Shown here one piece after another: positions 44,441-62,334 of a stretch of 62,334 bases of DNA. The notes under the pieces are model-generated. The model was not told the origin of the DNA. It was given only the letters and a program-made list of their open reading frames with translations, and made no database searches. Origin of the DNA: Bradyrhizobium sp. Lineage in GTDB: Bacteria; Pseudomonadota; Alphaproteobacteria; Rhizobiales; Xanthobacteraceae. The first letter of the stretch is position 1; each line of letters opens with the position of its first letter. The position numbers and the translations under genes are program-made. The DNA is taken from positions 1-62,334 of the forward strand of contig JAQGKC010000094.1 in the NCBI GenBank assembly GCA_028290305.1, in the 5' to 3' direction.

Positions 44441-44441
44441 C

Positions 44442-45654: not shown

Positions 45655-45768
45655 TCCAAATCTTCCGCGTCGTGTCCGAGCCCATATAGAGGGAGGGGTT
45701 CAGTCGACGGGCGCGGGAGTTGCGGAAGCGGGAGGGGGGAGTGCCTTGATAGTCGTAGGCTCAGCCGA

Positions 45769-47113: not shown

Positions 47114-47229
47114 GAGAGGCGCCGGCCGGCTCGTAAAATTGGAACCGCCGCACCAACGCCCCAGGCCGGCAAATCGCTCAATTCCCCGGTCAGAATTCCT
47201 TGAGGCAGGGGGCGTTGAGGCTAAAGGCG

Positions 47230-47580
47230 CTATCCCGATCTGTATTGTGGCTCATAGTTCACGAGCCACAATTCAAGGGCCGCGACGAACGTAACCATTG
47301 CGCCAAGGCCAATGCTGACGTGCATCGCCCTGGTGTGCATGAACCCCAGTGCCCACGGCGATACCATCGACCAAAGCCCAAGCAGGAGATTGAACCATTC
47401 CTCCCAATCCGAAAATGCGAGGATTGCGGCGATCGATATCGCCGTAATCGCCGCGCCGCTGGCCCAAACGTCAATGCGCGCCACTTCGTTGGCGTGCGCA
47501 AAAAGCCAGGGTGACACAAAAAGGAAAAGTCCGAACGACCCGGTGTAGACATCGAGCGCGGATTCGCGGCGCCATCCCAT
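47230..47580 (-). CDS. SPW-repeat membrane protein
   Basis: 116 residues from the ATG at 47580, preceded by AAGGAACCTGAA. Four membrane helices in two repeats, each with an SPW motif (LFLFVSPWLFAHA and SMVSPWALGFMHT). SPW proteins are small uncharacterised integral membrane proteins. The open frame continues upstream with no similarity, so this start is preferred. Confidence 0.85.
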   Translation of the reverse strand: MGWRRESALDVYTGSFGLFLFVSPWLFAHANEVARIDVWASGAAITAISIAAILAFSDWEEWFNLLLGLWSMVSPWALGFMHTRAMHVSIGLGAMVTFVAALELWLVNYEPQYRSG

Positions 47581-48313
47581 TTCAGGTTCCTTCGGCGACT
47601 TGACTGCTTCATTCGGAAGGTCGGCATGCAGCACGCCGGTTTCAAGGTATTCTTTCGGTTGAGCCGCCCCCCAACGGGTAACACGCATCGACCCTCTCAA
47701 GGGCGAGATCGAGTAAGGCGCCAAACTTCGTTGGTCTGCCCCGGCTTTTCACCGCTGGCCCGACGAACGATGTTCCGAATGGTGTTGCTAGTCTCAAGAT
47801 CGCGCAGTCGTACGGATTGACGAAAGGCGGTCTTGGAGAGGCTGTTAATGCTCGCGGCCGGACAATTTCATTCGATGGCGAAAGAGTTGCTGGTATCGTT
47901 CGATTGCGACTTGTCAAGGCTGGGTCGCTTGCAGACCGTCGAACGCTGAAATGGCATCGGCAAACCGGGACAGGTCTTCGATGAGACGTGACTGATTGTC
48001 AGCACCCAGAGGGCGAAGGCGTATCCATCCGCAGGTTGCCTATCGTGCAATAGTGCGAGCTGATTTTCCATGGAAAGCGTGACCGACGCACCGGGGAAAT
48101 TCGCTAACAACTGCCACGCCCAAATGGTCTGGAGCGGCTATCCCGTTGACGCGGCTGACATCGCCAGCTTCTCGCTCCTATTCATCGTCAAAGCGATCAG
48201 CCCCAAGTCTGACCGCTTCCCGCAAGGCGTGGGCTCGATTGTCGGGGCACCGGTGTATGTCACGCCGACCGTAGCCTGGGCGTCCGCGGTCGTTCTAAAT
48301 CGAGGTAATGTTG
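47581..48313. other. Region without a firm gene; one unexplained open frame
   Basis: About 730 bases between the SPW gene and the FAD monooxygenase. A plus-strand frame from about 47,716 to 47,970 lacks an ATG but reads protein-like text (GLTKGGLGEAVNARGRTISF). The minus strand has a similarly plausible short frame (RGRPTKFGALLDLALERVD). I cannot decide; it may be a gene remnant. Confidence 0.35.
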
Positions 48314-49444
48314 ATGAACGCGAATAAGCGAATTGCAGTTGTTGGCGCGGGCCTGGGTGGTCTAAGCGCTGCTGGATTCCTTCAACGTGCTGGTTTCTCA
48401 GTTACGGTCTATGAACAAGCGCCAGCCTTTTCGCGGATCGGCGCCGGGATCATCCTCAGCGCCAACGTGATGAAGGTGTTTCGCCGTCTTGGCATCGAAC
48501 AAAGCTTGGTTGAAACCGGCATCAAGCCTCAGTCCTACGTTAGTCGCGCCTGGGACACGGGCGAGAAGATGTATGAGATCCAATTCGACGCGGCAAGTGA
48601 GGCGCGATACGGCGGCCCCTATCTCAATATCCATCGGGGCGATCTGCATGGTGTTCTGGAACGCGTTGTTGCCCCTGGCACGATCGCTTTCAACCATCGT
48701 CTTGTCGGCCTCGACGAAAATAACGATGTGGTACGCCTCAGCTTCGAGAATGGCGTCCGGGTCGAGGCGGAAATAGTCATCGGCGCCGACGGCATCCATT
48801 CCAAGGTGCGCGAGAATTTGCTCGGTTCCGAGCCCCCGCGCTTCGTCGGTGCCGTGGCGCAGCGGGCGATCTTTCCGACCGAACGGCTGCGCGGATTCGA
48901 GATTTCAGACTGCACCAAATGGTGGGGAACGGACCGGCACATCCTGCCATACTTCATGACTAGCAGGCGCAACGAGATCTATGTCATTGGTGTTATTCCC
49001 GAGGCACAATGGGATAGCGACGTGTCGTCACTGCCCTGTAGTCGCAATGAAATGCTCGAAGCATTCGCGGGATTCCACGTCGATCTGCGCCGAATTCTGG
49101 AGGTAGCCGACGATGTCAGCCTCTGGCCGATCTACGACCGCGAGCGGAATGACCGTTGGAGTGGCGGCAGGATCGTGCTCCTCGGTGATGCCTGCCATCC
49201 GATGCGGCCCTTTATGGCTGCTGGCGGCGCGATGGCGGTCGAAGACGGGGTCATTCTTAGCCGCTGCCTTGAGGCATTTGACGATTATAGCGTGGCGTTT
49301 CGCTGGTATCAGGCGAGCCGAATCCCGCGTGTTGCGGAAGTGCAAGGTATCTCGATCGGCAACAGCTGGATGCGCGGGCCCACCGAAACTGACTGGTTCT
49401 ATTGCTACGATCCTTGCGTGGCAGCGCTTACACCGCCACGCTAA
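48314..49444 (+). CDS. FAD-dependent aromatic monooxygenase, NicC-like (6-hydroxynicotinate 3-monooxygenase family)
   Basis: 376 residues. I chose the ATG at 48314 because GAGG is 8 nt upstream (an ATG at 48308 is too close). Class A flavoprotein hydroxylase motifs: dinucleotide-binding VVGAGLGGLSAAGFL, FAD/NADPH-binding GADGIHSKVRENLLG, and GDACHPMRPFMA. The pattern NVMKVFRRLGIEQ, YLNIHRGDLHGVLE, CTKWWGTDRH and WPIYDRERND matches NicC more closely than salicylate hydroxylase. The likely reaction is decarboxylating or simple hydroxylation of a heteroaromatic ring using NADH and O2. It starts the catabolic cluster and precedes a deacetylase-fold hydrolase by 44 bases. Confidence 0.85.
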   Translation: MNANKRIAVVGAGLGGLSAAGFLQRAGFSVTVYEQAPAFSRIGAGIILSANVMKVFRRLGIEQSLVETGIKPQSYVSRAWDTGEKMYEIQFDAASEARYGGPYLNIHRGDLHGVLERVVAPGTIAFNHRLVGLDENNDVVRLSFENGVRVEAEIVIGADGIHSKVRENLLGSEPPRFVGAVAQRAIFPTERLRGFEISDCTKWWGTDRHILPYFMTSRRNEIYVIGVIPEAQWDSDVSSLPCSRNEMLEAFAGFHVDLRRILEVADDVSLWPIYDRERNDRWSGGRIVLLGDACHPMRPFMAAGGAMAVEDGVILSRCLEAFDDYSVAFRWYQASRIPRVAEVQGISIGNSWMRGPTETDWFYCYDPCVAALTPPR

Positions 49445-49488
49445 TGGTCGTCCCCCCCCCGTCAATTGTGAAGCGAGCATGTCGATCA

Positions 49489-50412
49489 ATGTATGAGCCC
49501 AAATCTGATCCAATGGTTGCGCGCGATCTCGTCGGCTATGGCGAATTTCCGCCGGACCCCGGCTGGCCCAGGCGCGCTTCCATTGGGGTGAACTTCAATC
49601 TCAACGTCGAAGGCGGCGGCGAGGCGACGCTCGTTAACGGCGACGATCTGTCCGAAGCCATGCTCAACGATATCGGCATGGGCGCAAAGCCGGGGCAGCG
49701 TTCCCCACTGGTCGAATCGGTGTTCGAATTTGGCAGCCGTCGCGGCGCCTGGCGGGTATTGGACATCTTTCGCGACTTCGCGGTCCAGGTGAGCATCCTC
49801 GGGGTCGCCCGCGCGCTGGAGCAGAACCCCGAACTGACCACCGCTTGCGTCCAGCGCGGGCACGAGATCGTAAGCCACGGCTATCGCTGGATCGATTACG
49901 CCGACGTCAGCGAGGAAGTCGAACGCGAGCATATCCGTCGCGCGATCGAGGTGCTGACGCGGTTGACCGGCACGAGGCCGGTGGGATGGATGACCGGACG
50001 ACCTGGACCGAATACGCGGCGGCTGATCGTCGAGGCCGGAGGATTTCTGTACGACCGGGATTCGCTCGCCGATGAGCTGCCGTACTGGCTGCGTATCGGT
50101 GAGCGGCCGCATCTGGTCATTCCCTATTCCTACGAGGCGAACGACAACCGCTTCAATGAAAACAGCGGGTTCTCGACCGGCGACGACTTCTTCACCTATA
50201 TGCGCGATGCCTTCGACGTTCTCCGACGCGAGGGCCAGAAAGGTTCACCGAAGCTGCTGTCGATCGGCCTGCATGACCGGCTAATCGGGCGGCCCGGGCG
50301 TTGCACCGGGCTGATCAGGCTGCTCGAGCACATGCGAAGCTTTGAGGACGTCTGGTTCTGCCGCGGCATCGATATCGCCGAGCATTGGCGCAAGCGCTTT
50401 CCTCAGTCCTGA
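49489..50412 (+). CDS. NodB-fold amidohydrolase, PuuE/allantoinase-like (polysaccharide deacetylase family)
   Basis: 307 residues from the ATG at 49489 (MYEPKSDPMVARDL; an ATG at 49513 is possible). It follows the PuuE-type pattern: DLVGYGEFPPDPGWPRRASI, NLNVEGGGE, VFEFGSRRGAWRVLDIF, CVQRGHEIVSHGYRWIDY, TRPVGWMTGRPGPNTRRLI and LSIGLHDRLIGRPGR. PuuE is a metal-independent-type allantoinase that opens the hydantoin ring. Here the substrate is probably a related cyclic amide. It overlaps by 10 bases with the convergent isochorismatase gene. A run of nine C lies in the upstream gap (49451-49460). Confidence 0.85.
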   Translation: MYEPKSDPMVARDLVGYGEFPPDPGWPRRASIGVNFNLNVEGGGEATLVNGDDLSEAMLNDIGMGAKPGQRSPLVESVFEFGSRRGAWRVLDIFRDFAVQVSILGVARALEQNPELTTACVQRGHEIVSHGYRWIDYADVSEEVEREHIRRAIEVLTRLTGTRPVGWMTGRPGPNTRRLIVEAGGFLYDRDSLADELPYWLRIGERPHLVIPYSYEANDNRFNENSGFSTGDDFFTYMRDAFDVLRREGQKGSPKLLSIGLHDRLIGRPGRCTGLIRLLEHMRSFEDVWFCRGIDIAEHWRKRFPQS

Positions 50413-51734
50413 AGCGACGTCCCAGCGAACAGATCGCCCGACGCGGCGACCCGTCCGAATATCTGCAGGGTCTCCAGGCTGGCGTCGTGCAGTTTGCGGC
50501 TGAAGCCGGAAACGCAGTCGGACAGTACCACGAAGCGGAAATCGCGGTGGAAGGCGTCGCGCGCGGTGGCCTCGACGCACATATTGGTGATGACGCCCGC
50601 GAGACAAATCGTGTCGACGCCGAGGCCGCGCAGCAGGGCCTCGAGCGAGCTATTATGGAAACCGCTGTAGCGGGTTTTCTCGACGACATAGTCGGGAGGT
50701 GGCATTTCCGCCAGCACCTCGGCACCCCAGGTGCCGCGCCGAAGTCCTTCGGTACGAATGAAGGGCCGGGACTGTTCGATGATCAGGCCGGCGTCGATCG
50801 GAAATCCGCGCGCGTCGGTGTTCCAGGCCATGCGCAGGTAGATGACGGGGATCGCATGCGCCTTGCACGCGCTCACCGCCGCGACCGTGGCCGGCACGAC
50901 GCTGTCCATGTCGAAGCAGTTCAATCCGTTGCGCGGATAGACGCCGCGCGCGTTGCAATAGTCGTTCTGCATGTCGACCACGACAAGGGCAGTCTTTTCC
51001 GGCACGGTGGTCGCCATGGTGTCTGCTCCCTCGTTACGCCGCAGCCGTTTCAGTGCCGACTTCGAGCCGAGCCGACCCAATACCTCGTCGACCGACAGGA
51101 CATCGCCGAAGAACTCGAAGAAGTTGTTCAGCGCCGCGGCGTGCGTTTCGGCCGTCGACCCGGCATTGCAGTCCGACACCATGATGGTGCGGAAATTGAG
51201 CATCATGGCGTCCTGCGCCGACGCCTGGCAGCAGACATTGGTGTAGGTGCCGGCGATGAGCACGAATTCGATTCCGTGAGTCCTCAGATACGCGGCCAGA
51301 TCGGAGGAGCCCTGGATGAACGCCGAATAGAACTTCTTCACCATCCGCGTGTCTTCGGTGCGGACATCCAGCGTCGGCCAGAACTGGTATCCTTCCGCAC
51401 CCAGCTCCATCGCGGCCAGGCGCGTCTCGGCCTTGTCCGGCGGGAGAAGCTCGTGGCGGACCGACCATTTCTCGCGCGTGTCCGTCGTCGTATTCTGCAT
51501 CCAGACGACGCGTCCGCCCCGTCCGCGCAGCTCGCCGGCCAGCCGGTTGATCGCGGGAACGATGTCGCGCGCGGTTTCCGCCTCGCCCTGCGCGTCCGGT
51601 GCGACGAAATAATTCTGCATATCGATGACGATCAGGGCAGTGCGGGCGACGGGGATGGTCTCCCAGGGATGCACATTGCCGCGATCGGCGATCGCCGCTG
51701 CAATCAAATCATCTGGAATAGCGTAGCCGGACAT
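50403..51734 (-). CDS. Tandem two-domain isochorismatase-family amidohydrolase
   Basis: 443 residues from the ATG at 51734 (GGAGG 5 nt upstream). Two complete cysteine-hydrolase domains: the first (about 25-215) has D in IVIDMQNYF, K in MVKKFYSAF, C in GTYTNVCCQAS; the second (about 247-435) has VVVDMQNDY, VEKTRYSGF and GVITNMCVEAT. Both D-K-C triads are intact. The domains are only distantly alike. Relatives cleave carbamoyl, ureido or amide bonds (RutB, maleamate amidohydrolase NicF, N-carbamoylsarcosine amidase). A strong ribosome site lies before internal Met240, so domain 2 might also be made alone. Confidence 0.88.
   Translation of the reverse strand: MSGYAIPDDLIAAAIADRGNVHPWETIPVARTALIVIDMQNYFVAPDAQGEAETARDIVPAINRLAGELRGRGGRVVWMQNTTTDTREKWSVRHELLPPDKAETRLAAMELGAEGYQFWPTLDVRTEDTRMVKKFYSAFIQGSSDLAAYLRTHGIEFVLIAGTYTNVCCQASAQDAMMLNFRTIMVSDCNAGSTAETHAAALNNFFEFFGDVLSVDEVLGRLGSKSALKRLRRNEGADTMATTVPEKTALVVVDMQNDYCNARGVYPRNGLNCFDMDSVVPATVAAVSACKAHAIPVIYLRMAWNTDARGFPIDAGLIIEQSRPFIRTEGLRRGTWGAEVLAEMPPPDYVVEKTRYSGFHNSSLEALLRGLGVDTICLAGVITNMCVEATARDAFHRDFRFVVLSDCVSGFSRKLHDASLETLQIFGRVAASGDLFAGTSLQD
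51017..51032 (-). promoter_or_regulatory. Internal Shine-Dalgarno and start inside the tandem hydrolase
   Basis: On the minus strand GAGGGAG stands 8 nt before the ATG of Met240 (MATTVPEKTALVVVDMQ), exactly at the head of domain 2. The frame has no stop between the two domains. This looks like two adjacent genes that have lost a stop codon, with internal translation still possible. Confidence 0.55.
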
Positions 51735-51814
51735 CGGGCCTCCGTCGGTCCATGGTTGGGGCGATGCTGCGGTCGTGCAGCCATGCCAATACGAGCAAGG
51801 ATTGCACACCAGTC

Positions 51815-51836
51815 AAGTTCTTTCACGAGTAGAAAG
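51815..51836. promoter_or_regulatory. Candidate operator, site 1 (AAGTTCTTTC...GAAAG)
   Basis: AAGTTCTTTCACGAGTAGAAAG lies about 80 bases upstream of the tandem hydrolase start, with CTTTC/GAAAG arms. AAGTTCTTTC also occurs upstream of the ABC operon (52,639). It may be an operator for the adjacent XRE-cupin regulator. Inference from two sites only. Confidence 0.35.
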
Positions 51837-51850
51837 TGGGCGTCGCGTGC

Positions 51851-52471
51851 TCACAGTGTGGGCGGCGTATTGACCCACACGATCATGGCGACCGCCTCGC
51901 CGGGATTGGTGACGCCGTGCGGTCGCATCGACGGGAAGAAAAAGGCGTCGCCGGCCTTCAGGGAATAGGTGTCGCCTTCAACGGTCAGGGCAATCTCGCC
52001 GGTGACGATGTAGCCGACTTCGTCGCCTTCATGTTGGCGCATTCCATCGCCGCGCGCGCCGGGCTGAACACGAAGCAAGGTAGCCTGCAGCGCCGAGTCG
52101 GCCCCGAACGGAATCAACAATTCGGTCTCGAGGCCGTCGACGCCGAACCCACCGAGCCCGATCCGGCTGAGCACGGGTCGCTGGCCCTCGCGCATGATAA
52201 TGCCGTGCGCCGGGACTTGTTCGCTCAACAGCGTGGCGATCGTGATTCCAAGGCCCTTCGCGAGGCGGTGTAGCGTGTTGAGCGAAGGCGTCGCCTTCCG
52301 GTTCTCGATCTTCGAGATCAGGCTTTCGGAGCAGCCGGAGGCCGCCGCCAGATCGGCGAGCCGCATCGCTCTGGCGATGCGCGCGTGCTTCAGCCGCACG
52401 CCGAGCGCCAGTTCGTCCTGCGCCGACCCGTCACGCGGAAACGGACGGTTCTTTGACGTTGCCTTCTTCAC
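51851..52471 (-). CDS. XRE-type regulator with C-terminal cupin
   Basis: 206 residues from a GTG at 52471 with GGAGAGG 5 nt upstream. Residues 22-80 are an HTH_3 domain (LGVRLKHARIARAMRLADLAAASG, SLISKIENRKATPSLNTL), and about 135-205 form a cupin (HEGDEVGYIVTGEIALTVEGD and GDAFFFPSMRPHGVTNPG). Such regulators bind a small ligand in the cupin and control nearby catabolic or transport genes, often as repressors. It is divergent from the ABC operon and upstream of the hydrolase gene, so it is the natural candidate for cluster control. Confidence 0.92.
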   Translation of the reverse strand: MKKATSKNRPFPRDGSAQDELALGVRLKHARIARAMRLADLAAASGCSESLISKIENRKATPSLNTLHRLAKGLGITIATLLSEQVPAHGIIMREGQRPVLSRIGLGGFGVDGLETELLIPFGADSALQATLLRVQPGARGDGMRQHEGDEVGYIVTGEIALTVEGDTYSLKAGDAFFFPSMRPHGVTNPGEAVAMIVWVNTPPTL

Positions 52472-52817
52472 TCCAACCTCTCCGCGCGTCGCCAAGCAAC
52501 AGCATCCTGCCGTTTAATCGCCGGCGCTGGCAATCCGGCAGCGATTGCTTGTCCCCGTCGGCGACCAAACCCGCGCTTGGCCATGGCAGGCAATCGGACA
52601 TTCCATTTATAGCGCAACGGCTAATTTGCAAAGAGTGAAAGTTCTTTCCTTCAATTCATGAGCACGCTGCCGGTTTTTGCATCAGCTGCGGCAGAAGGAA
52701 CCCAAAAAATCCAGGTTTTACGAGCTTTCCTCCGTGGCATGTGAGTTGCATCGTATTCAGGTGAGCCGCATTCGTGCGGTGGATCCTGAGCGCCGCCCTT
52801 CAAATGGAGATCCAGCC
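52472..52817. other. Divergent intergenic control region
   Basis: About 345 bases between the regulator and the ABC operon. It holds the second AAGTTCTTTC site, A/T-rich stretches near 52,600-52,720 and the BMP ribosome site (GGAG at 52806). Regulation of the importer very likely occurs here. Confidence 0.45.
52636..52648. promoter_or_regulatory. Candidate operator, site 2 (GTGAAAGTTCTTTC)
   Basis: GAAAG-TT-CTTTC is an inverted repeat sharing AAGTTCTTTC with site 1. It is about 170 bases upstream of the substrate-binding gene. See site 1. Confidence 0.35.
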
Positions 52818-53897
52818 GTGAAATCAAATCGAGTGCGTATCGCGATGATGTCTCTGGTCGGCGGATTGCTGCTCGCAAATCAGGCCGTCGCCGACGAAAA
52901 GCTCAAGGTGGCCTTTGTCGAATTTTCGCAGCCGTCGGGATCGTCGTGGGTTCGGGCGAATACCGAGTCGACCAAATATCTGCAGGAGCACGTGCCAGAC
53001 CTCGAGATCACGCGCGTCGAATCCGTCGCCGATGGTCCGGGCGTCGTGCCCGTGATCAACAACCTGATCGCCAAGGGCAACAAGGTCATCTTCGCCAACA
53101 GCTACGGCTATGGAACGTTCATTCCCGAGATTGCCAAGAAACATCCGGAAGTCGACTTCGTCGTCCAGATGTCCGATCCGAAGGGTCCGAGGAACGTCGC
53201 CTCCTACTACGGCAAGCTGGAAGAGGTCCGCTATCTCGAGGGCGTCCTTGCCGGCAAGATGACCAAGACGAATATCGTCGGATTCTCCGGCGCCTATCCT
53301 TATTCGGCCGTCGTCTCCGGCGTGAACGCGTTCGCGCTCGGCGTCAAATCGGTCAATCCGAGCGCCAAGGTCGTCACCAACTGGGTCAACAGCTGGTACG
53401 ACCCGCCGAAGGAGAAGGAATCCGCCGACGCCCTGCTCAGTGCGGGCGCCGACATCATCGTCAACCACCTCGATTCCTCGGCCACGTTGCAGGCAGCCGC
53501 GGCAAAGGGAAAATGGGGAATGACGTCGAATGCCGACTGGTCGTTCGCGGCGCCGCAGGCCTTCCTCAGCGGCAGCGCCTGGAATTGGGGTCCGTTCTAC
53601 GTCAAGGCTGTTGAGGCTGTTAAGGCCAATAGATTCGAATCCACGCGCGACCTCGGAGACTTGAAAAGCGGCATCGTGGTGCTGCTGCCCTATGGCCCGA
53701 TGGTGACCGACGAGGCCAAGCAGGCCGTCGAAGCGGCCAAGCAGAGGATCATGTCGGGCGAGCTGAAGGTCTTCGCCGGGCCGATCGAGGATAATGAAGG
53801 CAAGTTGCGCGTTCCCCCGGGCAGCGAACTCAGCTCCGAAGACGCCGCCACCAAGATGAATTGGCTCGTGGCGGGGGTGCAAGGCGCCGCGAAATAG
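52818..53897 (+). CDS. BMP-family ABC transporter substrate-binding protein
   Basis: 359 residues from a GTG at 52818, with GGAG 8 nt upstream. Signal peptide: VRIAMMSLVGGLLLANQAVADEK, cleaved near AVA-D; no lipobox. The mature part has the BMP/PnrA fold: KVAFVEFSQPSGSSW, VFANSYGYGTFIP, EVRYLEGVLAGKMTKTN and GADIIVNHLDSSATLQ. BMP receptors bind purine nucleosides or related compounds. It heads an operon with an ATPase and two permeases. Confidence 0.92.
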   Translation: MKSNRVRIAMMSLVGGLLLANQAVADEKLKVAFVEFSQPSGSSWVRANTESTKYLQEHVPDLEITRVESVADGPGVVPVINNLIAKGNKVIFANSYGYGTFIPEIAKKHPEVDFVVQMSDPKGPRNVASYYGKLEEVRYLEGVLAGKMTKTNIVGFSGAYPYSAVVSGVNAFALGVKSVNPSAKVVTNWVNSWYDPPKEKESADALLSAGADIIVNHLDSSATLQAAAAKGKWGMTSNADWSFAAPQAFLSGSAWNWGPFYVKAVEAVKANRFESTRDLGDLKSGIVVLLPYGPMVTDEAKQAVEAAKQRIMSGELKVFAGPIEDNEGKLRVPPGSELSSEDAATKMNWLVAGVQGAAK

Positions 53898-53921
53898 TCC
53901 GACAGCGAGGGAATCAGCCTC

Positions 53922-55445
53922 ATGGCCTCAGCCGGAGAAGGCGTTTTACTGTCGTCGATCAGCAAGCGCTTCGGTGGCACCGTCGCCAACGACCGTGTCG
54001 ATCTCAGCCTGCGGCGCGGAGAAATCCACGCGCTGCTCGGCGAGAACGGCGCGGGAAAGTCGACGCTGATGAATATTTTGTCGGGCGTCTATCTGCCCGA
54101 CAGCGGTGAAATCTTCATCGACGGCGAGAAGACGAAGTTTCGCTCGCCCTGGGACGCAGTTCGTCGCGGGATTGGCATGGTTCACCAGCATTTCCAGCTG
54201 GTGAACGCGTTTTCCGTGCTCGATAATATCCTGCTCGGCGCGACCGACGCCTCGCTGCGTCTGCACCGGCGCGAAGCGGCCCAGTGTGTCGAAGCGGTGG
54301 GACGTGAGCACGGGCTGCACATCGATCCGCATGCGCTGATCTGGCAATTGACGGTCGGTCAGCGGCAAAAGGTCGAAATCCTCAAATTGCTCTATCGCGG
54401 CGCGGATCTTTTGTTGCTCGACGAGCCGACCTCGATGCTGACGCCCGGCGAAGCAGCCGATCTGTACCTGGCGTTGCGACGGCTTGCGGACGCGGGCAAA
54501 TACGTCGTGTTCATCACCCACAAGCTGCGCGAAGTCGCCGAAACCGCCGATCGGGTCACCGTGCTGCGGCGCGGCCGCGTCGTCGCGTCATTGGGAAGGT
54601 CGAAGGCCTCGATCCAGGAACTCGGTGCGCTGATGGTCGGCGCCGCAATGCCGGCGCAGCGGCCCATTAGCGCCGGCAATTTCGGTGAGGTCGTACTCAA
54701 GGTCCAAAACGCGCAAGCGCAGGCTGATCGCGGCGCCAGCGGCCTCAAGGGTGTGTCGCTCGAACTGCGGGCCGGAGAAATTCTCGGTATCGCCGGCGTC
54801 GCGGGCAACGGCCAGGTCGAACTGGCCGAATGCGTGGCTGGAATCCGCGCCCTTCAGAACGGACAGATCTGGCTGAAGGGCCATGACGTGACAGCGGCCA
54901 ACGCGCTGTCGCGGCTACGCGCCGGATTGCGCTTCGTGCCGGAGGACCGTCTCGGCATGGGGCTGGTCCCGCAGCTCGACATGACCGACAACATGCTGCT
55001 GCGCGACTATCGCGAGCGGCCGCTGGCGAAAGGCATCTGGGTCAGCCGGCGGGTCGCGCGCGAGCGCGCCGAGAACCTCATTCGCGACTACGATGTGCGT
55101 ACGCCGGGAACCGGGACCGCCATCCGCTCGCTCTCCGGCGGCAACCAGCAGAAAATCCTGATCGGGCGCGAAGTGCTGGCCCAGCCCGTGGTATTCATCG
55201 TCGCGCAACCGACCCGTGGCCTCGATATCGCTGCGGCGCGCGCGGTGCACGATCGGCTGCTCGATCTGCGCGAGACCGGCGCCGGGATCATTCTCATTTC
55301 CGAGGATCTGGACGAGATCCTGCAATTGTCCGACCGGGTGACGGTGCTCTACGACGGGGCCATCCGTGACTCGTGGCCCCGCGAGAGCGCCGAACGCAGC
55401 GATATCGGCGCCGCGATGGGCGGCCATCTGCTGGACGCGGCTTGA
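53922..55445 (+). CDS. ABC importer ATPase with two nucleotide-binding domains
   Basis: 507 residues. NBD1: Walker A GENGAGKSTLMN, Walker B LLLLDEPTS, signature LTVGQRQKVEIL in place of LSGGQ. NBD2 (about 255-500): a degenerate Walker A (GVAGNGQVELAECVAGI) and LSGGNQQKIL, with the paired DIAA. This layout is that of the sugar/nucleoside (YufO/NupO) class. It follows the BMP gene by 24 bases and couples ATP hydrolysis to import. Confidence 0.93.
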   Translation: MASAGEGVLLSSISKRFGGTVANDRVDLSLRRGEIHALLGENGAGKSTLMNILSGVYLPDSGEIFIDGEKTKFRSPWDAVRRGIGMVHQHFQLVNAFSVLDNILLGATDASLRLHRREAAQCVEAVGREHGLHIDPHALIWQLTVGQRQKVEILKLLYRGADLLLLDEPTSMLTPGEAADLYLALRRLADAGKYVVFITHKLREVAETADRVTVLRRGRVVASLGRSKASIQELGALMVGAAMPAQRPISAGNFGEVVLKVQNAQAQADRGASGLKGVSLELRAGEILGIAGVAGNGQVELAECVAGIRALQNGQIWLKGHDVTAANALSRLRAGLRFVPEDRLGMGLVPQLDMTDNMLLRDYRERPLAKGIWVSRRVARERAENLIRDYDVRTPGTGTAIRSLSGGNQQKILIGREVLAQPVVFIVAQPTRGLDIAAARAVHDRLLDLRETGAGIILISEDLDEILQLSDRVTVLYDGAIRDSWPRESAERSDIGAAMGGHLLDAA

Positions 55446-55447
55446 TT

Positions 55448-56488
55448 ATGGCCATTCCCATCTGGCTGCGGATGCCCGGCGCGTTCGTGCTGTCGGTCCT
55501 GCTTGGGCTGGCGGCGTCGTCGCTGGTCCTTGTGGCCGTGCATGCGCCGGTCCTTGAAACCTTTCACGCGATCTTTGACGGGGCGGTGGGCTCCTGGAGC
55601 GCGCTCGAGAGCTCGCTGGTGTTTGCCGAGCCGATCGCCTTCACCGGTCTTGCTGCGGCCGTCGCCTTTCGTGCACGGGTCTGGAACATCGGCGGCGAGG
55701 GCCAGATGGTGATGGGCGCCTTCGGCGCCGGTCTCATCGCTCTCAACACCTCGCTGCCGGCGCCGCTGATGTTGCTGGCGGTCGTGGCCTGCGGGATCGC
55801 CTGCGGCGCGATCTGGGCGTTCGTTTCGGCGGCCCTGAAGGTCTGGCTAGGCGTCAACGAAGTGCTGTCCAGCCTGATGTTGAACTACATCGCCATCCTG
55901 TGGATGCAGTCGCTGGTCTATGGGCCGTGGCGGGAGCCGGGCGGGGGCTGGCCCTATTCGGCATTTTTCCCCGATGCGGCAAGGCTGCCGTCGATCGGAT
56001 CCGAGCTCGACATCTGCGTCATTGCGGCGCCGCTTGTGGCGCTCGCGTTGAGCGGGCTGCTGCGGTTGAGCCGCTGGGGCTTCGAGATCACTGTTGTCGG
56101 CCACTCGCACGAAGCGGCGCGTTACGCGGCCATCAGCGTTACCCGCGTGACCATTGCGGTTATGCTTCTCAGCGGCGCACTGGCCGGGGTGGCCGGTATC
56201 CAGCAAGTGAGCGGGACGGCCGGGCGGCTCTACGTGCTAACGCCGGGCTATGGCTACCTCGGCATCCTCGTCTCTTGGCTTGCCGGGCACGATCCGTTGC
56301 TCGTCCTTGTCATGGCGGTGTTCTACGGCATCCTGATGCAGGGCGGTTCCGCGCTGCAGATCGCCCAGATCGATCCGTCCCTGGTCCGGGTCATGCAGGC
56401 CGCGATCATTCTGTTTGCGCTCGCTGGACTGACCCTGGCGAGACGGATCCGGCCGCGCGTGCAGCCTGCAAAGGGCGACCGCACATGA
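55448..56488 (+). CDS. ABC importer permease 1 (BPD_transp_2 family)
   Basis: 346 residues from the ATG at 55448, only 2 bases after the ATPase stop. About nine membrane helices. The EAA-like loop region contains NIGGEGQMVMGAFGAG and the VNEVLSSLMLNYIAI segment of YufP/NupP-type nucleoside permeases. It overlaps the next permease by ATGA. It pairs with the second permease to form a heterodimer. Confidence 0.92.
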   Translation: MAIPIWLRMPGAFVLSVLLGLAASSLVLVAVHAPVLETFHAIFDGAVGSWSALESSLVFAEPIAFTGLAAAVAFRARVWNIGGEGQMVMGAFGAGLIALNTSLPAPLMLLAVVACGIACGAIWAFVSAALKVWLGVNEVLSSLMLNYIAILWMQSLVYGPWREPGGGWPYSAFFPDAARLPSIGSELDICVIAAPLVALALSGLLRLSRWGFEITVVGHSHEAARYAAISVTRVTIAVMLLSGALAGVAGIQQVSGTAGRLYVLTPGYGYLGILVSWLAGHDPLLVLVMAVFYGILMQGGSALQIAQIDPSLVRVMQAAIILFALAGLTLARRIRPRVQPAKGDRT

Positions 56489-57426
56489 ACATGACGGTCC
56501 TCATCAGCATGCTGGCGACCAGCGTGGCTGCAGCCAGCCCGCTGCTTTTGGCCGCGCTCGGCGAACTCGTGGTCGAGCGCAGCGGCGTGCTGAACCTGGG
56601 CATCGAGGGAATCATGCTGGTGGGGGCGCTCACGGCGGTGGCGGCGACGCTTGGCTCGGGGTCGGTCGTGATCGGCATCCTCTGCGCGATCGTGGCGGGC
56701 ATGTTGCTCGGGCTTTTGTTCGCGCTGCTAACGGTGACGATCCGCGCCGATCATGTCGTCGCCGGCCTGGCGCTGGTGCTGTTCGGCGACGGGCTGTCGA
56801 GCTTTGCCGGGCACGGCCTGGTCGCCATTGACGTTCCCCAGAGCGTGCACGCGCTTCCGATTCCGCTGCTTTCGGATATCCCCGCGCTCGGCCCGATTTT
56901 CTTTCGCCAAAATGCGCTGGTCTATCTGTCCTACTTCATGGTCGCCGCGGTCTGGTATTTCCTCTACCGGACGCGGCCCGGCCTGGCGCTGCGCGCGGCC
57001 GGTGAGAAGCCGAGCGCCGTCGACGTGGTGGGGTGGAACGTATTCCGCATTCGTTATCTCGCGGTGGTGTTCGGCGCGGGCATGGCGGGGCTGGCGGGCG
57101 CCTTCCTGTCGGTCGGGTATTTGAACAGCTGGGCTGAAGGCATGACCGCCGGCCGTGGCTGGGTGGCGCTGGCGCTTGTGATCTTCGCCGGCTGGCACCC
57201 GATCAAGCTGCTCGGCGGCGCCTATCTGTTCGGCTTCGCTTATATCCTGATCGCGGAATCGCAGGTTCTGGGCGGCATATTCTACCTGATTTCGACCTAC
57301 GTCATGCAGATGTTCCCCTATCTGATGGCCATCATCGTGTTAGCGGTGATGGGCCGGCGCGCGATGAAGCGCCGCGCCGGCGCCCCCGAAGCGCTCGCGC
57401 TGCCATACGTGCGTGAAGAGCGATGA
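56485..57426 (+). CDS. ABC importer permease 2 (BPD_transp_2 family)
   Basis: 313 residues. The start overlaps the previous stop (ATGA). Motifs: GELVVERSGVLNLGIEGIMLVGAL at the N terminus, and ALVIFAGWHPIKLLGGAYLFG near the C terminus, as in YufQ/NupQ. Together with the preceding genes it makes a complete BMP-type importer, likely for nucleosides, bases or a related N-heterocycle. Confidence 0.92.
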   Translation: MNMTVLISMLATSVAAASPLLLAALGELVVERSGVLNLGIEGIMLVGALTAVAATLGSGSVVIGILCAIVAGMLLGLLFALLTVTIRADHVVAGLALVLFGDGLSSFAGHGLVAIDVPQSVHALPIPLLSDIPALGPIFFRQNALVYLSYFMVAAVWYFLYRTRPGLALRAAGEKPSAVDVVGWNVFRIRYLAVVFGAGMAGLAGAFLSVGYLNSWAEGMTAGRGWVALALVIFAGWHPIKLLGGAYLFGFAYILIAESQVLGGIFYLISTYVMQMFPYLMAIIVLAVMGRRAMKRRAGAPEALALPYVREER

Positions 57427-57475
57427 CGGCCCGCGACCATGTTCACCCGTTTGAGAGTCCGTAAAGGAGAAGACG

Positions 57476-57808
57476 ATGCCGAAGCCTGAACTGGAATTCT
57501 TCCCGACCGACAACATTCCCTGGGTGCCGGTCGAGGGCGCACCGCCCGGTCACTATCAGAAGATCCTGACCGAGGATCCTGACAAGATGTTCGTGACGCG
57601 GATGCTGAAGGTCGATCCGGGATGCGCCAGCACGGAAACATTCGTGCACGACTTTTGGGAAGAGGTGTACATCCTCGAAGGCAATCATTGGGACGGCGAC
57701 CAATTCTTCGAGAAGGGCATGTATGCCTGCCGTCCGCCGGGCATGAAGCACGGCCCGTACCGGACCGAAGGCGGGGTCGTGACGTTCGAAGTCAGGTACG
57801 CCCGCTAG
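57476..57808 (+). CDS. Small cupin-domain protein
   Basis: 110 residues with AAAGGAGAAGACG before the ATG, a strong ribosome site. Single cupin: HDFWEEVYILEGNHWDGDQF and GMYACRPPGMKHGPYR supply the His/Glu metal positions. It resembles ChrR-type or catabolic cupins such as isomerases or dioxygenase-like proteins. It follows the importer and precedes the M24 gene, so it probably acts in the same pathway. Confidence 0.85.
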   Translation: MPKPELEFFPTDNIPWVPVEGAPPGHYQKILTEDPDKMFVTRMLKVDPGCASTETFVHDFWEEVYILEGNHWDGDQFFEKGMYACRPPGMKHGPYRTEGGVVTFEVRYAR

Positions 57809-57838
57809 GTTTCCATCGATCCCTGCGAGCATATTGAG

Positions 57839-58975
57839 ATGCCACAGCACCGCCGCAGCGTCCTGGCCAACATCGACCGGCTCAATGCCTATATGGACAA
57901 CAACGGACTCGCGGCGGTCGCGGTCCGTACCGGCGTGAACTTTACCTATTTGTCGGGAATGGCGATGCCGGGCACGCTGTCCCGGCATCTCGATATTGCC
58001 AATACGGTGCGTGGCTTTATGGTTCTGTGGCCGCGCCATGGCGCGCCGGTCATCATCCTCGACGCCTTCGCCGAGAAGCTTGCGCGACGCGAGTCGTGGA
58101 TCGCGCAGGTCGAAGTGTATCAAGCTTATGAGAAATCACTTTACAGCCGGCTTGCGGAATTGATCGCCGACGCCGGTCTGGCGGCAACACGAATCGGTTT
58201 CGAGCAGGATGGACTGAGTGCGGCGCACTGGGAGGAAATCCAGCGCGCTTTGCCGAAGCTCCAAATGGTGAACTGTTCGCGGATGATGGATGAAGTCAGA
58301 TGGATCAAGACGCCCCGCGAAATCGCCCAGCAGAAGAGGGCCGCCGATCTTCTGGACGATGTCCTGGCGGAGGTCTTCCCAACGATCCGGCAAGGCGAAA
58401 CCGAGCGCGAGGTGCATGCGCGCGTGCTTGCTGCCTGTACCCGGCGAGGCGCCGGCTATGTCCATGGCATCCTGAATTCAAGTTCGAACGACGTGATGTA
58501 CGGCGGCGAAAGCGATGTCGCGTTCCGCAAGGGCGATTTTGTGCGCAACGACTACGTCACCTACTTCGACGGTTGCCCGGGACATCAGTCCCGCCTCGCC
58601 ATTCTGGGGCCGCCGAGCACGGAACAGCTGCGCGGCTACGAACTGACCCTTGAGATCCACCGCAAGACCATCGATCGGTGCCGCGCCGGCGTGACTGCCG
58701 GTGAGATCTACGCGTTTGCGGTAGAGGAGTTCAAAAAGAAGGGGATCGATTACACCGCATCGCTGGTTGGGCACGGTATGGGACCATGGTTTCACCAGCA
58801 AGAGCCGGTCTTGCGGAGGGACAGCGACATCGTCCTGGAAACGGGAATGATCCTGGCGGTTGAGCCGCAGCGTCTGCATTGGCACCTGCAGGATCTGATT
58901 TTGGTTGGTGATGGGCCGCCGCAATTGATTTCCGACAAGTTCTCGACTGATCAGCCGTTCGTCGTCAAAATGTGA
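57839..58975 (+). CDS. M24-family hydrolase (creatinase/prolidase fold) with altered metal site
   Basis: 378 residues: creatinase N-terminal domain (about 10-140) and a pita-bread catalytic domain. The five classical metal ligands read D238, H249 (in place of Asp), H312 (GHGMG), E342 (AVEPQ), Q351 (in place of Glu). Only three of five remain, so a standard di-metal aminopeptidase is unlikely. Creatinase is a known metal-free member of the fold that hydrolyses a C-N bond, which would fit the cluster. Some M24 proteins may keep one metal. The function is inferred. Confidence 0.85.
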   Translation: MPQHRRSVLANIDRLNAYMDNNGLAAVAVRTGVNFTYLSGMAMPGTLSRHLDIANTVRGFMVLWPRHGAPVIILDAFAEKLARRESWIAQVEVYQAYEKSLYSRLAELIADAGLAATRIGFEQDGLSAAHWEEIQRALPKLQMVNCSRMMDEVRWIKTPREIAQQKRAADLLDDVLAEVFPTIRQGETEREVHARVLAACTRRGAGYVHGILNSSSNDVMYGGESDVAFRKGDFVRNDYVTYFDGCPGHQSRLAILGPPSTEQLRGYELTLEIHRKTIDRCRAGVTAGEIYAFAVEEFKKKGIDYTASLVGHGMGPWFHQQEPVLRRDSDIVLETGMILAVEPQRLHWHLQDLILVGDGPPQLISDKFSTDQPFVVKM

Positions 58976-59152
58976 ACATCGCAATTGCTTTGTCAAATAT
59001 TTGTACCGTGAAGCTGAGCTGTCACGGGAGCAATCTTGACCTGTCCCTGTCGGAAACCTCTAGGTGCCAAATATCATCGCGGCCTGGCTGCTTGCGACGC
59101 AGACGTCGTGTTGCAGCCTGCGTTGTTCAGCAACAAGGCTGATCCTGCTTCT

Positions 59153-59281
59153 CTACTGGAGATGAAATTCCCTGTTGGAAGGTCTGATCAAGAATCCGAT
59201 CATCAGGAAGGTGTCGTTCACCACGATCCTGCCCGTGTCATCCACAATGCAGATACTAGTGTCCTTGACCGATTGGTCCAT
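59153..59281 (-). mobile_element. IS110-family transposase, N-terminal remnant
   Basis: From the ATG at 59281 the minus strand reads MDQSVKDTSICIVDDTGRIV, matching the DEDD-domain start of IS110 transposases; the first ~20 residues fit and then similarity is lost (NDTFLMIGFL onward, stop at 59153). A truncated insertion sequence just beyond the M24 gene. Confidence 0.65.
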
Positions 59282-59416
59282 GCTGCGCTTCTCCTTCTGA
59301 TGCTTGAGGTCGTCACCACGGACCTCGTTTCACCATCAGCCTGAAGCGCAGCACCCAAAAATCTTCACCTATCCACAAGCTGGGCCGGCCGATTACCCCA
59401 TCTCTGCCCGAGTAAT

Positions 59417-59563
59417 TCAGAAGTCGACTTGTTCCGCTATGGCGAGAGCATCATCAACCTCGATGCGAAGATATCTGACGGTGCTTTCGATCTTGGTGTG
59501 GCCGAGCAAGAGCTGCACCGCTCGCAGACTGCCTGTTCGCCGATAGATTAGAGCGGCCTTCTA
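59417..59563 (-). pseudogene. C-terminal remnant of a tyrosine recombinase
   Basis: The minus strand reads AALIYRRTGSLRAVQLLLGH, then TKIESTVRYLRIEVDDALAI and a stop at 59417. This is the end of a phage-type integrase: the Gly-His of LLLGH and the nucleophile Tyr of VRYL are there, but all upstream parts are absent. A dead remnant. Confidence 0.65.
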
Positions 59564-60002
59564 ACGTCGATCGTCGTGCTCGTGATCTCCTCCAAGCCTT
59601 CCCGAGCGAAGAACGAATTAAGCACTTCGAGGCTCGTGTCCCCGGTACTCGTGGGACCCCCTGCCGATCTGGCGCACTTGCAAGGCTCAAAAGGGGCGCC
59701 GGGCCGCGGCCTAGTGCGCTTGAGATTTGATCAGCGCCGGAAGCGAGCGGGACCGATCCTGTCTGGATCGAGTCTGCCATCACTGCGACGTGTGGCCGCG
59801 TTCTCTGCGCGCTGAACCTGAAATGTTCAGGCGCACTTTTGCTACAATTGCCGCGCTAAATGCCCGTGCGTTCTGTCTTGGGTAACATTTGTTGTGGAGT
59901 GAGGGGCAACATTTATTGTGGGCCATCGCAAGGCCGTACGGAAAGATTGCTAGCCCAGATCACCTGCCCAGCTCGGCAGCCGCATATCGGCGGGGAGGGC
60001 GC
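59564..60002. other. Scar region with repeated AACATTTrTTGTGG motif
   Basis: About 440 bases. GTAACATTTGTTGTGGAG (59882) and GCAACATTTATTGTGGGC (59908) are near-identical direct repeats, reminiscent of insertion-sequence ends. No gene is found. Confidence 0.4.
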
Positions 60003-62334
60003 GTGCATCTACCGAAAACGAAATCGCGGGACGAAACCGGCCGAAGAGTCCGATTCTATGTGGCTCTTGGCTTGGTGACGGCAGCGACGCTGATGCTGCA
60101 GATCATCGAGACCAGAATCATTTCCGTTATCTCATGGTACCACCTGGCCTTCTTCGTCATCAGTATTGCCATGTTTGGCCTGACCGCTGGCGCAGTTTCT
60201 GTCTATTTGCGCAGGCAGAGGTTCAGACCGGAGCAACTGTCCTACGACCTGGCCGTGGCGGCGCTGGCCTTCGCCTTAACGACCGATCTGGCCATGCTCG
60301 TGCAATTGACGTTGGTGACAGGTGCTTCGCCGTCGCTCACCTCCCTGGTCGCTTGGGCAGAATTCGCGCTCTGTCTCGCCGTTCCATTTTTCTTTTCGGG
60401 CGTTGTCGTGAGCCTTGCCCTGACGCGCAGCCCCTATGCGATCGGAAATGTCTACGGAGCGGATATGATCGGTGCGGCCGCTGGGTGCATCGGTGTCCTT
60501 GTGCTCCTGAATGTGATGAGCGGGCCATCAGCGGTGTTGTGGGTCGGTGCGCTCATCGGGCTCGCGGCGCTCGGCTTCGCCGGCTCCGGACTCGGCACCC
60601 TGCCCGAATCCACGTCGCTCGGGACCAAGCTCTTTCGCTACCGCCGAAGCATTGTCACAGGCTGCCTACTCTTTGCGATTGCCAACACGCTCACGATCTA
60701 TGGCGTTCGACCGACGATCATCAAGGATCACTTGGAGACGCCGGCCGATCTTGCGTACGATCGCTGGAATTCGTTTTCCCGCATCACCGTCAGTCGGAGC
60801 GAAACGGTCCCGCCGGCGATGTTCGGCGCCTCGCCGCGCTTGCCGCACTCGACCATTGAGCAGCGAGCGCTGAATATCGACGGCGGCGCCGGCACTCCCC
60901 TGTACCGCTTCGATGGAATTCTCGCGAACTTGGGGTTCCTGCGCTATGACGTGACCAACCTTGCCTATGCCGTTCCGGACCTGAAAACCGGTGCCGTGAT
61001 CGGCGTGGGCGGCGGTCGGGACGTCCTGTCGCAACGCCTCTTCGGCCTGAGTGACGTGACGGGCATCGAGATCAATCCGATCATCATCGACGTCCTGGAG
61101 CGCCACTTTTCCGGCTATACAGCGATCGCCACATTGGATGGGGTGAAGTTCGAGGTCGACGAGGCGCGCAGCTGGTTTGCACGCACACCGCGTTCCTTCG
61201 ATGTCATCCAGATGAGCCTGATCGATACCTGGGCGGCGACGGGCGCCGGCGCCTTCACGCTTACAGAAAACGGTCTTTACACAATCGAGGCCTGGCAACG
61301 CTTTCTCGGTCGGCTTAATCCAAATGGCCTGTTCACGGTGAGCCGCTGGTACGCGCCCGGCGAAGTGAACGAGACCGGGCGATTGGTCAGCCTTGCCGTC
61401 GCGACACTTCTTGCAAGCGGCGCCGCCGAGCCCAGGCGCCACCTGTTCCTCGCCGCAGCCGGGAAGGTAGCGACACTGATCGTGACGAAGTCGCCGCTCT
61501 CGCCGGCGACGCTCAGGGCGCTCGAGAACGCCGCCAAAGCCAATGAATTCACGGTGCTGTTAAGCCCGGACACGTCGGCGCCATCCGCCGTGCTCGAGAA
61601 GGTCGTCAGTGCTATGGACCGTCGCATGCTCGACCGGGCGACGACCGGCTTCTATCTCGACCTCACGCCGCCGACCGATGCGCGCCCTTTCTTCTTCAAC
61701 CAGTTGCGGTTCGCCACGCTGTTTGACGCGGACGTGTTCTCTCACTTCACGCACACCGGCGTGTTCGCGGGCAACCTCGTCGCGACGCTGACCCTTGCCA
61801 TGCTGGTTCTGATTTCGGTCGCGCTGGTCGCCGCTACGATCATCGTCCCGCTGCAGCCGACGGTCAGAGAAGCCGGCTGGCAGCTGGCCTTGGGCGGCAC
61901 CGTTTATTTCGCCCTGATCGGGAGCGGGTTCATGATGGTCGAGATCGCTCTCCTACAGCGAATGAGCGTCTTCCTCGGTCATCCCGTCTACGCGTTGAGT
62001 GTCGTTCTGTTCAGCCTGATCCTCTGGGCAGGCTTCGGCAGCCTGGCATCCGAGCGCATGCGCCTTGCCGGAACAGGCAAGCTCTTAGCCTGGAGCGTCG
62101 CGTGTGCCGCTTACTTGTTTGCGTTGCCGCTCTGGCTGCCTCCGTTCTTGGTCGATCTTGATGGAGCGGGCCTTCTCGTTCGCGCCGGACTCTGTATTCT
62201 TGTCCTGGCGCCGGCAGGCTTCCTGATGGGCTTTGGATTTCCCACCGGCATGCGACTGGTCTCTGCAATCAGCACGGGCCCCACGCCATGGTTCTGGGGC
62301 ATCAACGGTGCTGCAGGCGTGCTCGCCGCAAGCG
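60003..62334 (+). CDS. Membrane-anchored spermidine-synthase-like protein (runs off the window end)
   Basis: The frame is open from a GTG at 60003 (GGAGG 4 nt upstream) to the last base, 777 codons, with no stop. Layout: six or so N-terminal membrane helices (about residues 17-230), a spermidine/spermine-synthase-like methyltransferase domain (VIGVGGGRDVLSQRL at about 330-345, with the acidic GIEINPIIIDVLE), and a second membrane part from about 580 with MMVEIALLQRMSVFLGHP and GFPTGMRL. Such fusion proteins are found in several proteobacteria; whether they transfer an aminopropyl group is unknown. The catalytic Asp pair of true spermidine synthases is not evident, so another Rossmann-type reaction is possible. 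Confidence 0.85.
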   Translation, partial: MHLPKTKSRDETGRRVRFYVALGLVTAATLMLQIIETRIISVISWYHLAFFVISIAMFGLTAGAVSVYLRRQRFRPEQLSYDLAVAALAFALTTDLAMLVQLTLVTGASPSLTSLVAWAEFALCLAVPFFFSGVVVSLALTRSPYAIGNVYGADMIGAAAGCIGVLVLLNVMSGPSAVLWVGALIGLAALGFAGSGLGTLPESTSLGTKLFRYRRSIVTGCLLFAIANTLTIYGVRPTIIKDHLETPADLAYDRWNSFSRITVSRSETVPPAMFGASPRLPHSTIEQRALNIDGGAGTPLYRFDGILANLGFLRYDVTNLAYAVPDLKTGAVIGVGGGRDVLSQRLFGLSDVTGIEINPIIIDVLERHFSGYTAIATLDGVKFEVDEARSWFARTPRSFDVIQMSLIDTWAATGAGAFTLTENGLYTIEAWQRFLGRLNPNGLFTVSRWYAPGEVNETGRLVSLAVATLLASGAAEPRRHLFLAAAGKVATLIVTKSPLSPATLRALENAAKANEFTVLLSPDTSAPSAVLEKVVSAMDRRMLDRATTGFYLDLTPPTDARPFFFNQLRFATLFDADVFSHFTHTGVFAGNLVATLTLAMLVLISVALVAATIIVPLQPTVREAGWQLALGGTVYFALIGSGFMMVEIALLQRMSVFLGHPVYALSVVLFSLILWAGFGSLASERMRLAGTGKLLAWSVACAAYLFALPLWLPPFLVDLDGAGLLVRAGLCILVLAPAGFLMGFGFPTGMRLVSAISTGPTPWFWGINGAAGVLAAS

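Follow-up and report, generated by a model that had tools for sequence, protein, structure and literature searches.

Do the genes gathered in a 10.6-kb block of a Bradyrhizobium genome serve one catabolic pathway, and for which class of compound? The block lies in positions 1 to 62,334 of contig JAQGKC010000094.1 (assembly GCA_028290305.1), a stretch of 62,334 nucleotides hereafter called the window, and encodes a NicC-like flavin hydroxylase, a PuuE-like protein, isochorismatase-type amidases, an importer of the BMP family, an XRE-cupin regulator, a small cupin and an altered M24 protein. Scanning of ten window proteins of the cluster against Pfam and NCBIfam confirmed all of these families by their domains. 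The original prediction, according to which the cluster imports and degrades a nitrogen heterocycle, is still the best reading of the parts, but co-occurrence of the genes proved to be layered, and only the hydroxylase and PuuE-like genes are tightly linked. A separate C-N hydrolase, also named in that prediction, was not found: none of the ten scanned proteins has a CN_hydrolase domain, and the “C-N-hydrolase-fold protein” is therefore best taken as the M24 protein.

A conserved pair of hydroxylase and PuuE-like genes

In 25 of 25 loci the hydroxylase gene is located directly upstream of the PuuE-like gene, on the same strand and with 27–160 bp between the aligned parts, so the co-occurrence anticipated for the cluster is borne out for this pair. 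The loci comprise the window and 24 genomes with a match above 550 bits to a profile (A3) built from four PuuE-like orthologs, all from loci with the pair; they were chosen without regard to the hydroxylase, and the 550-bit split between orthologs and sister proteins was set after the scores had been seen (557, followed by 477). At an E-value of 1e-115 the profile gave 8 matches in 397 genomes of the order of G382, 4 in 300 genomes of the order of G002, 4 in 265 genomes of the genus of G536 and 22 in 228 genomes of its family; a looser limit applied to six genomes yielded an ortholog in G171. These genome samples overlap. Several of the 24 loci are not independent because they share the same flanking genes (L135, L136, L138, L139, L141 and L143 among them), and four matches in the order of G002 (386–389 bits, including L069 and L070) stand outside the 25-locus count. 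When the PuuE-like protein itself served as query against 242 genomes, 224 of them gave a match at 1e-70 or better; among the matches listed, three were close relatives (92% identical in G536, 78% in G508 and 74% in G427), while the others were 47–51% identical.

The hydroxylase is absent from all eight loci of the sister clade of PuuE-like proteins (426–478 bits, 55–63% identity). It was likewise found in none of the 35 loci with a canonical or other PuuE gene that were examined, mostly with flanks of about 1.5 kb each; about 200 further canonical matches are outside this count. In five of the eight sister-clade loci (L062, L063, L064, L149 and L150) the PuuE-like gene has a flavin hydroxylase gene of the HpaB type nearby, with an NAD-dependent epimerase-like gene alongside (scanned in L062), and M20 or hydantoinase-like genes are present in four of these five. 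These five loci represent a second, parallel pairing of a hydroxylase with a PuuE-like protein.

The closest solved relative of the window hydroxylase is NicC (5eow/8uiq; 357 bits). NicC residues H211, Y215 and C202 are retained in 8/8 aligned orthologs, and in the same eight proteins the active-site residue H47 is replaced by Ile and H302 by Phe or Tyr. As far as described in PMC9304392, His211 and Tyr215 bind 6-hydroxynicotinate in NicC, and fungal HxnX, which has Gln at the His47 position, still acts on this compound. 6-Hydroxynicotinate is consequently an uncertain candidate substrate: His47 is missing from the hydroxylase, yet it is missing from HxnX too. The score with the HpxO urate hydroxylase model (NF033623) is 156.5 bits, against a cut-off of 500.

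The genes surrounding the pair vary. Of the 24 other loci, 16 encode an importer of the NMT1/THI5 type no more than 7 kb from the pair, and 14 of these 16 also have a MarR regulator; short contigs, such as L140 (4.1 kb) and L142 (5.3 kb), limit these neighbor counts. Within the same distance, six further loci carry amidases of other families or M20 amidohydrolases, namely FmdA-like proteins (L061, L145), AmiE (L106; 638 bits, cut-off 427) and M20 proteins (L059, L144, L146), for which reason a deamidation step may recur near the pair with unrelated enzymes. In the window itself, a 27-residue stretch on the minus strand (47941–48021) matches, with 13 identical residues, the C-terminal end of the MarR regulator found with the pair in other genomes, and is perhaps a relic of an NMT1/MarR module upstream of the hydroxylase gene.

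Relationship of the PuuE-like protein to allantoinases

The PuuE-like protein has the same fold and length as the allantoinase PuuE (3cl6), with which it shares 53% identity (354 bits; 52 bits for 3qbu). Nevertheless, it scores 384.6 with the TIGR03212 allantoinase model, below the cut-off of 424.6, as do four orthologs (378.5–386.4) and three sister-clade proteins (371–384). The separate puuE gene of G536, used as a positive control, reached 535.7, and the L070 protein also scores as an allantoinase (537.4). In a phylogenetic tree the window protein and seven orthologs form a clade of their own (support 0.997), not grouped with allantoinases of the same genus. At 40 positions the window group has a fixed residue that differs from at least 90% of the 30 other sequences compared, canonical or not, and at 26 of these positions it also differs from 3cl6. 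The gene neighborhoods differ as well: the window gene adjoins a flavin hydroxylase gene instead of urate-pathway genes, and the canonical puuE of G536 adjoins a uraD/HIU-hydrolase fusion, about 237 kb from the block.

We therefore rejected the possibility that the PuuE-like gene is the allantoinase gene of the organism, on the basis of the sub-threshold score, the distinct clade and the separate puuE of G536; allantoin, which had been listed among the candidate substrates, is disfavored by the score and by the separate allantoinase of G536, which passes the cut-off. Against this rejection, the window group agrees with 3cl6 at the remaining 14 of the 40 positions, and 3cl6 falls outside the rhizobial allantoinase set in the unrooted tree, although it is 59–61% identical to that set versus 53% to the window protein. 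From its fold and relatives we infer that the PuuE-like protein is a hydrolase of a cyclic amide, imide or ureide.

Conservation of the whole block in a second genome

Beyond the pair, the full cassette of regulator, BMP importer, two amidases, cupin and M24 protein (Table 1) was found alongside the core genes in the window and in locus L043 of genome G536 only. Window positions 48331–58977 align to L043 with 86.9% DNA identity, and all block genes are present there in the same order, with 86–97% identity. The homology ends at the start of the hydroxylase gene and at the stop codon of the M24 gene, the flanks being non-homologous. In G536 the block is located at 1.95 Mb, while window positions 2386–6000 map to 7.15 Mb (85–89% DNA identity); from positions 59800–62334 a single 110-bp match (73%) was obtained in this genome. 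The different map positions and the non-homologous flanks therefore indicate that the same block content occupies two different chromosomal places. In all 11 gene pairs compared between the window and L043, dN/dS was 0.04–0.12, i.e. the block genes are under purifying selection. Its recurrence between unrelated flanks and this selection mark the block as more than a chance assembly. A search of plasmids with window positions 48308–52500 gave no match.

Past the hydroxylase gene, L043 (15725–19745) contains a second XRE-cupin gene, which adjoins the hydroxylase gene, as well as a gene for a DUF1989 protein and genes for a permease and its binding protein of the sugar type. The second XRE-cupin gene and the DUF1989 gene were not found in window positions 43001–48400 or 58981–62334.

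Table 1. Features of the catabolic block, with positions in the window
Feature	Position	Strand	Evidence
Group A FAD hydroxylase, NicC-like, 378 aa (core gene 1)	48308..49444	+	Pfam FAD_binding_3
PuuE-like (NodB-fold) protein of the polysaccharide deacetylase family, 307 aa (core gene 2); allantoinase paralog	49489..50412	+	3cl6 match, TIGR03212 score
Fused isochorismatase-type cysteine amidases, Iso1 followed by Iso2 (from ATG 51017)	50403..51734	-	two PF00857 stretches
Operator-like element RTGAAAGNNNTT, upstream of the amidase gene	51815..51826	-	motif match
XRE-type regulator with C-terminal cupin, PuuR-like	51851..52495	-	HTH_3/HTH_31 and Cupin_2
Operator-like element RTGAAAGNNNTT, between the regulator gene and the importer operon	52635..52646	+	motif match
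BMP-family periplasmic binding protein (GTG start probable, upstream TTG at 52677 possible)	52818..53897	+	PF02608
Double ATPase of the BMP importer	53922..55445	+	ABC_tran, two stretches
Importer permease 1	55448..56488	+	BPD_transp_2
Importer permease 2	56485..57426	+	BPD_transp_2
Small cupin (Cupin_7), partner of the M24 gene	57476..57808	+	PF12973
Altered M24 (pita-bread) protein	57839..58975	+	Creatinase_N and Peptidase_M24

Importer, amidases and regulator

The nearest solved relatives of the importer's binding protein are AtzT (6pi5, 226 bits) and Brucella 3s99 (214 bits). As in these proteins, its pocket keeps the stacking aromatic residues at positions 45 and 194 (both Trp) and Ser97, and the His/Asp residues at positions 218/220 are those of 3s99; unlike AtzT, it has Tyr in place of Phe98 and, both in the window and in L043, Ala in place of Glu165 (PMC6834077). 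The aromatic sandwich of AtzT is thus preserved, while its purine-bonding residue is not: in the description of the pocket in PMC6834077, Glu165 of AtzT binds guanine and 2-hydroxyatrazine. For the double ATPase, the best NCBIfam model was “putative B6 ABC transporter ATP-binding protein” (484 bits, versus a cut-off of 670).

The “double cysteine amidase” of the original prediction contains two PF00857 domains with the Asp, Lys and Cys of isochorismatase-type cysteine amidases in each (D38/K133/C168 and D254/K353/C386 in protein P0002), residues that we take to form the catalytic triads. As a single gene, however, it did not stand. In L043 each domain has a gene of its own, and the two genes are in different frames. 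Relative to L043, the window carries a 5-bp insertion (a tandem CTCGG) a short distance ahead of the stop codon of the first gene, which makes translation continue into the second. Since these two observations explain the fusion, an ancestral bifunctional enzyme was rejected; the fusion is either genuine or an artifact of assembly. A single-domain metagenomic protein (P0003) is 90% identical to the first half of the fusion, and a relative of Iso1 (60%) is encoded in the pair-carrying genome G743, on a different contig from the pair. Scores with the RutB model TIGR03614 (cut-off 377.95) were 59.3 bits for Iso1 and 111 bits for Iso2, and those with biuret-hydrolase models were also far under the cut-off.

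The XRE-cupin regulator matches the PuuR model with 82 bits, under the cut-off of 211. The element RTGAAAGNNNTT matches the window three times, with one match in each of the two gaps that border the regulator gene, and none of 100 shuffles reached three; in L043 there are only two matches, both at the corresponding places (1/200 shuffles). These shuffle numbers overstate the significance of the element because the motif was picked after the sites had been seen. The elements cover the amidase and importer operons.

The cupin/M24 pair

In the M24 protein, metal-ligand positions D238, H312 and E342 are kept, while the other Asp and Glu are replaced by H249 and Q351 and the catalytic His by Tyr221, a pattern invariant in the 25 rows aligned; presumably, the aligned positions have the ligand roles of the canonical M24 set (D, D, H, E, E and the catalytic His). 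With two of the five ligand positions changed and the catalytic His replaced, the two-metal site of a peptidase such as prolidase is not present, and the protein is probably a non-peptidase C-N hydrolase. The M24 fold also occurs in creatinase and the ectoine hydrolase DoeA, which are not peptidases; the window protein is about 20% identical to these. A structure search with the AlphaFold model (pLDDT 79.5) left the fold tied between DoeA, creatinase and prolidases, the last fitting equally well. This search was run on the M24 model only, and families missing from its results are not thereby excluded. The sequence match to creatinase is weak (32 bits).

Close relatives of the M24 protein are mostly metagenomic (75–92% identity among the best 120 of 948), and one protein with 89% identity is labeled Bradyrhizobium sp. 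Proteins resembling it on plasmids are all less than 60% identical. A match at 1e-60 or better was found in 5 of 391 genomes of the family of G003. Profile scanning of genome contigs gave six loci, of which L004 and L005 contain 44% identical relatives and L006 (26%) was left out as too distant. A cupin gene precedes the M24 gene in L001, L002 and L003 (83–92% identity) and in L043 (97%). The importer genes near these cupin/M24 pairs encode NMT1-type binding proteins in L001 and L003 and a TctC-type protein in L002. Since the NMT1-type protein of L003 is 55% identical to the one encoded beside the hydroxylase/PuuE-like pair in L044 (37% for the L001 protein), comparison of these binding proteins suggests related ligands for the two modules. 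More distant M24 relatives (44–48% identity) are encoded in G536, G427, G053, G382 and G171.

Two side observations concern this gene. In L067, L068, L107 and L108, a 47–48% identical M24 relative lies near an M20 amidohydrolase gene (scanned in L067, L068 and L107), an open reading frame (ORF) with part of an ABC ATPase, and apparent genes for a LysR-type regulator and a binding protein. In L003 (10001–11111), from a metagenome-assembled genome, the M24 gene is split over frames near its end, possibly owing to an assembly error.

A putative pathway and its relation to known systems

Taken together, we hypothesize that the block is a catabolic unit for a nitrogen heterocycle, in which import, hydroxylation, hydrolytic ring opening and deamidation belong to one pathway; our confidence in this is about evenly balanced. 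Judging from its pocket, the BMP importer would bring in a small planar ring compound. The NicC-like flavoenzyme, by homology, would hydroxylate the ring, so that a cyclic amide, imide or ureide results either directly or by tautomerization. Hydrolytic opening of this ring at a C-N bond would fall to the PuuE-like hydrolase, whose fold and relatives are known, and one or both isochorismatase-type amidases would release ammonia, or ammonia and CO2, from the open amide or ureide. More speculatively, the M24 protein, together with the cupin, would probably hydrolyze a further amidine, ureido or amide bond without a normal two-metal site. Through the TGAAAG element in both intergenic regions, the XRE-cupin regulator probably governs the operons of the importer and of the amidases.

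The bacterial nicotinate pathway comprises NicC, NicX, NicD and NicF, of which NicF is an isochorismatase-type amidase. The block resembles it in its NicC-related hydroxylase and in the type of its amidases; it differs in that His47 and His302 are replaced and in that the ring would be opened by a PuuE-like hydrolase rather than by the NicX dioxygenase. As far as described in PMC9304392, ring opening in the aerobic nicotinate routes of bacteria is carried out by dioxygenases or by a polyketide cyclase, and in the hxn pathway of Aspergillus nidulans a hydroxylase like NicC acts in one route with a cyclic imidase of the NodB fold and an amidase. The block resembles hxn, as presented there, in having a NicC-like hydroxylase with the His/Tyr pair and an altered His47, a PuuE-related NodB-fold candidate for ring opening and candidate amidases for the step after it. 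Unlike the window PuuE-like protein, which is near 3cl6 (354 versus 52 bits), HxnM has 3qbu as its nearest structure, and HxnN resembles FAAH1, while the window amidases are of the isochorismatase type (PMC9304392). Proteins analogous to the hxn hydroxylase, imidase and amidase are present as candidates, from another imidase branch and another amidase fold. The cluster was not classed as a member of hxn, because its imidase candidate comes from the branch of PuuE and because it lacks counterparts of three hxn enzymes.

Somewhat more boldly, and as a tentative proposal, the hydroxylase/PuuE-like pair may lie at the heart of a bacterial route not yet described, which would convert a hydroxylated ring of the pyridine or pyrimidine type to a cyclic imide and open it by hydrolysis, not by a dioxygenase. 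It would be a counterpart of the hxn logic built from different enzyme branches, with importers (NMT1, BMP) and amidases (isochorismatase, FmdA, AmiE, M20) varying in Bradyrhizobium and its kin, and the window would add an M24 protein with an altered metal site. A literature search covering open-licence papers found no description of this combination of gene families.

Alternative explanations

A number of observations weigh against a single pathway. The BMP, Iso1 and Iso2 genes lie within 7 kb of the pair in two of the 25 loci (the window and L043); scattering of the genes among relatives, named beforehand as an outcome that would count against the original prediction, is therefore not seen for the pair and is partly seen for the other genes. 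Seventeen of the 25 loci, some of them on short contigs, lack within this distance every type of amidase looked for. The cupin/M24 and hydroxylase/PuuE-like modules are usually apart, because the genomes with close cupin/M24 relatives (G001–G003) have no close PuuE-like ortholog (best 353.6 bits) and, of six pair-carrying genomes searched (G536, G508, G427, G555, G029 and G743), only G536 has a close M24 relative. The BMP protein is also absent from all three of G001–G003. A scan of the window revealed no RTGAAAGNNNTT upstream of the hydroxylase gene, and no counterparts of HxnV, HxnT (OYE) or HxnW were apparent among the ten scanned proteins. Moreover, dS of the hydroxylase gene between the window and L043 is 0.91, compared with 0.30–0.62 for the other ten genes, and its GC content is the lowest in the block (0.58 versus 0.60–0.66), a deviation hinting at recombination or a partly separate history.

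Many of these points would be accommodated by two pathways side by side: the hydroxylase/PuuE-like module would serve one heterocycle, the cassette of BMP, amidase, cupin and M24 genes would handle a different compound, and the two would have been joined in an ancestor of the window and L043 organisms. Such an arrangement is the main and a serious rival, although less likely than a single pathway. The pair occurs without BMP or Iso1/Iso2 within 7 kb in 23 of the 24 other loci, the cupin/M24 pair is found without it, the elements flanking the regulator gene cover the cassette operons only, the hydroxylase deviates in dS and GC, and in L043 the second XRE-cupin gene stands right beside the hydroxylase gene. 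Yet the block has been kept gene for gene at different sites in two genomes with all genes under purifying selection, amidases of other families occur near the pair in six other loci, and in L003 the cupin/M24 genes are accompanied by a binding protein like that of the pair. A variant of purine or ureide catabolism, with an HpxO-like urate hydroxylase, a second allantoinase, amidases acting on ureides and a purine-binding BMP protein, seems improbable. The nearest solved relatives are indeed the PuuE allantoinase and two purine-binding BMP proteins (the latter as described in PMC6834077), and the identity to 3cl6 and the 14 shared positions also fit; however, the HpxO and TIGR03212 scores are below their cut-offs (the former by far), G536 has its own puuE, the other 26 group-specific positions differ from 3cl6 as well, and the guanine-binding Glu165 is lost. 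We give equally little credence to a creatinine- or hydantoin-type route, in which the PuuE-like protein would open a hydantoin and the roles of N-carbamoylsarcosine amidase and creatinase would be taken by an isochorismatase-type enzyme and the M24 protein, respectively: it does not need a flavin hydroxylase, the RutB and biuret-hydrolase scores are far too low, and prolidases fit the M24 structure as well as creatinase does.

Genetic surroundings of the block

Upstream of the block, at 36654–38252, a tyrosine integrase gene comes immediately after a tRNA-Leu gene (anticodon GAG), an arrangement typical of integration sites. Apart from a match with three mismatches inside a tRNA-Arg gene, the window yielded no further copy of the tRNA-Leu end. 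Positions 40703–45654 contain a serine recombinase gene with a DUF2924 protein gene, and an integrase ORF that has the arm and middle domains but no match to the catalytic domain; these are mobile-element remains just upstream of the cluster. The GC content is 0.57 over positions 36762–48000 versus 0.61 over 1–36000. Three stretches at 39427–39607 are repeated at 40559–40742 with a spacing of about 1.13 kb and 83–94% identity, the second copy entering the end of the recombinase gene; the repeats are perhaps the tail of a lost second recombinase. Elsewhere, a segment at about 5110–5197 is matched in dozens of places in G536 on both strands, as a dispersed palindromic-type repeat, and is read through in an ORF starting at 5107.

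Significance of the gene pair

If the proposed route is correct, the two-gene signature recurring in the 25 loci would mark hydrolytic opening of N-heterocycles by soil bacteria and could serve as a genome-mining marker for a poorly mapped soil nitrogen source. It would also be a warning against naming these PuuE-like genes allantoinase, and the clusters would be a natural source of imidases, BMP proteins and M24 hydrolases that have diverged.

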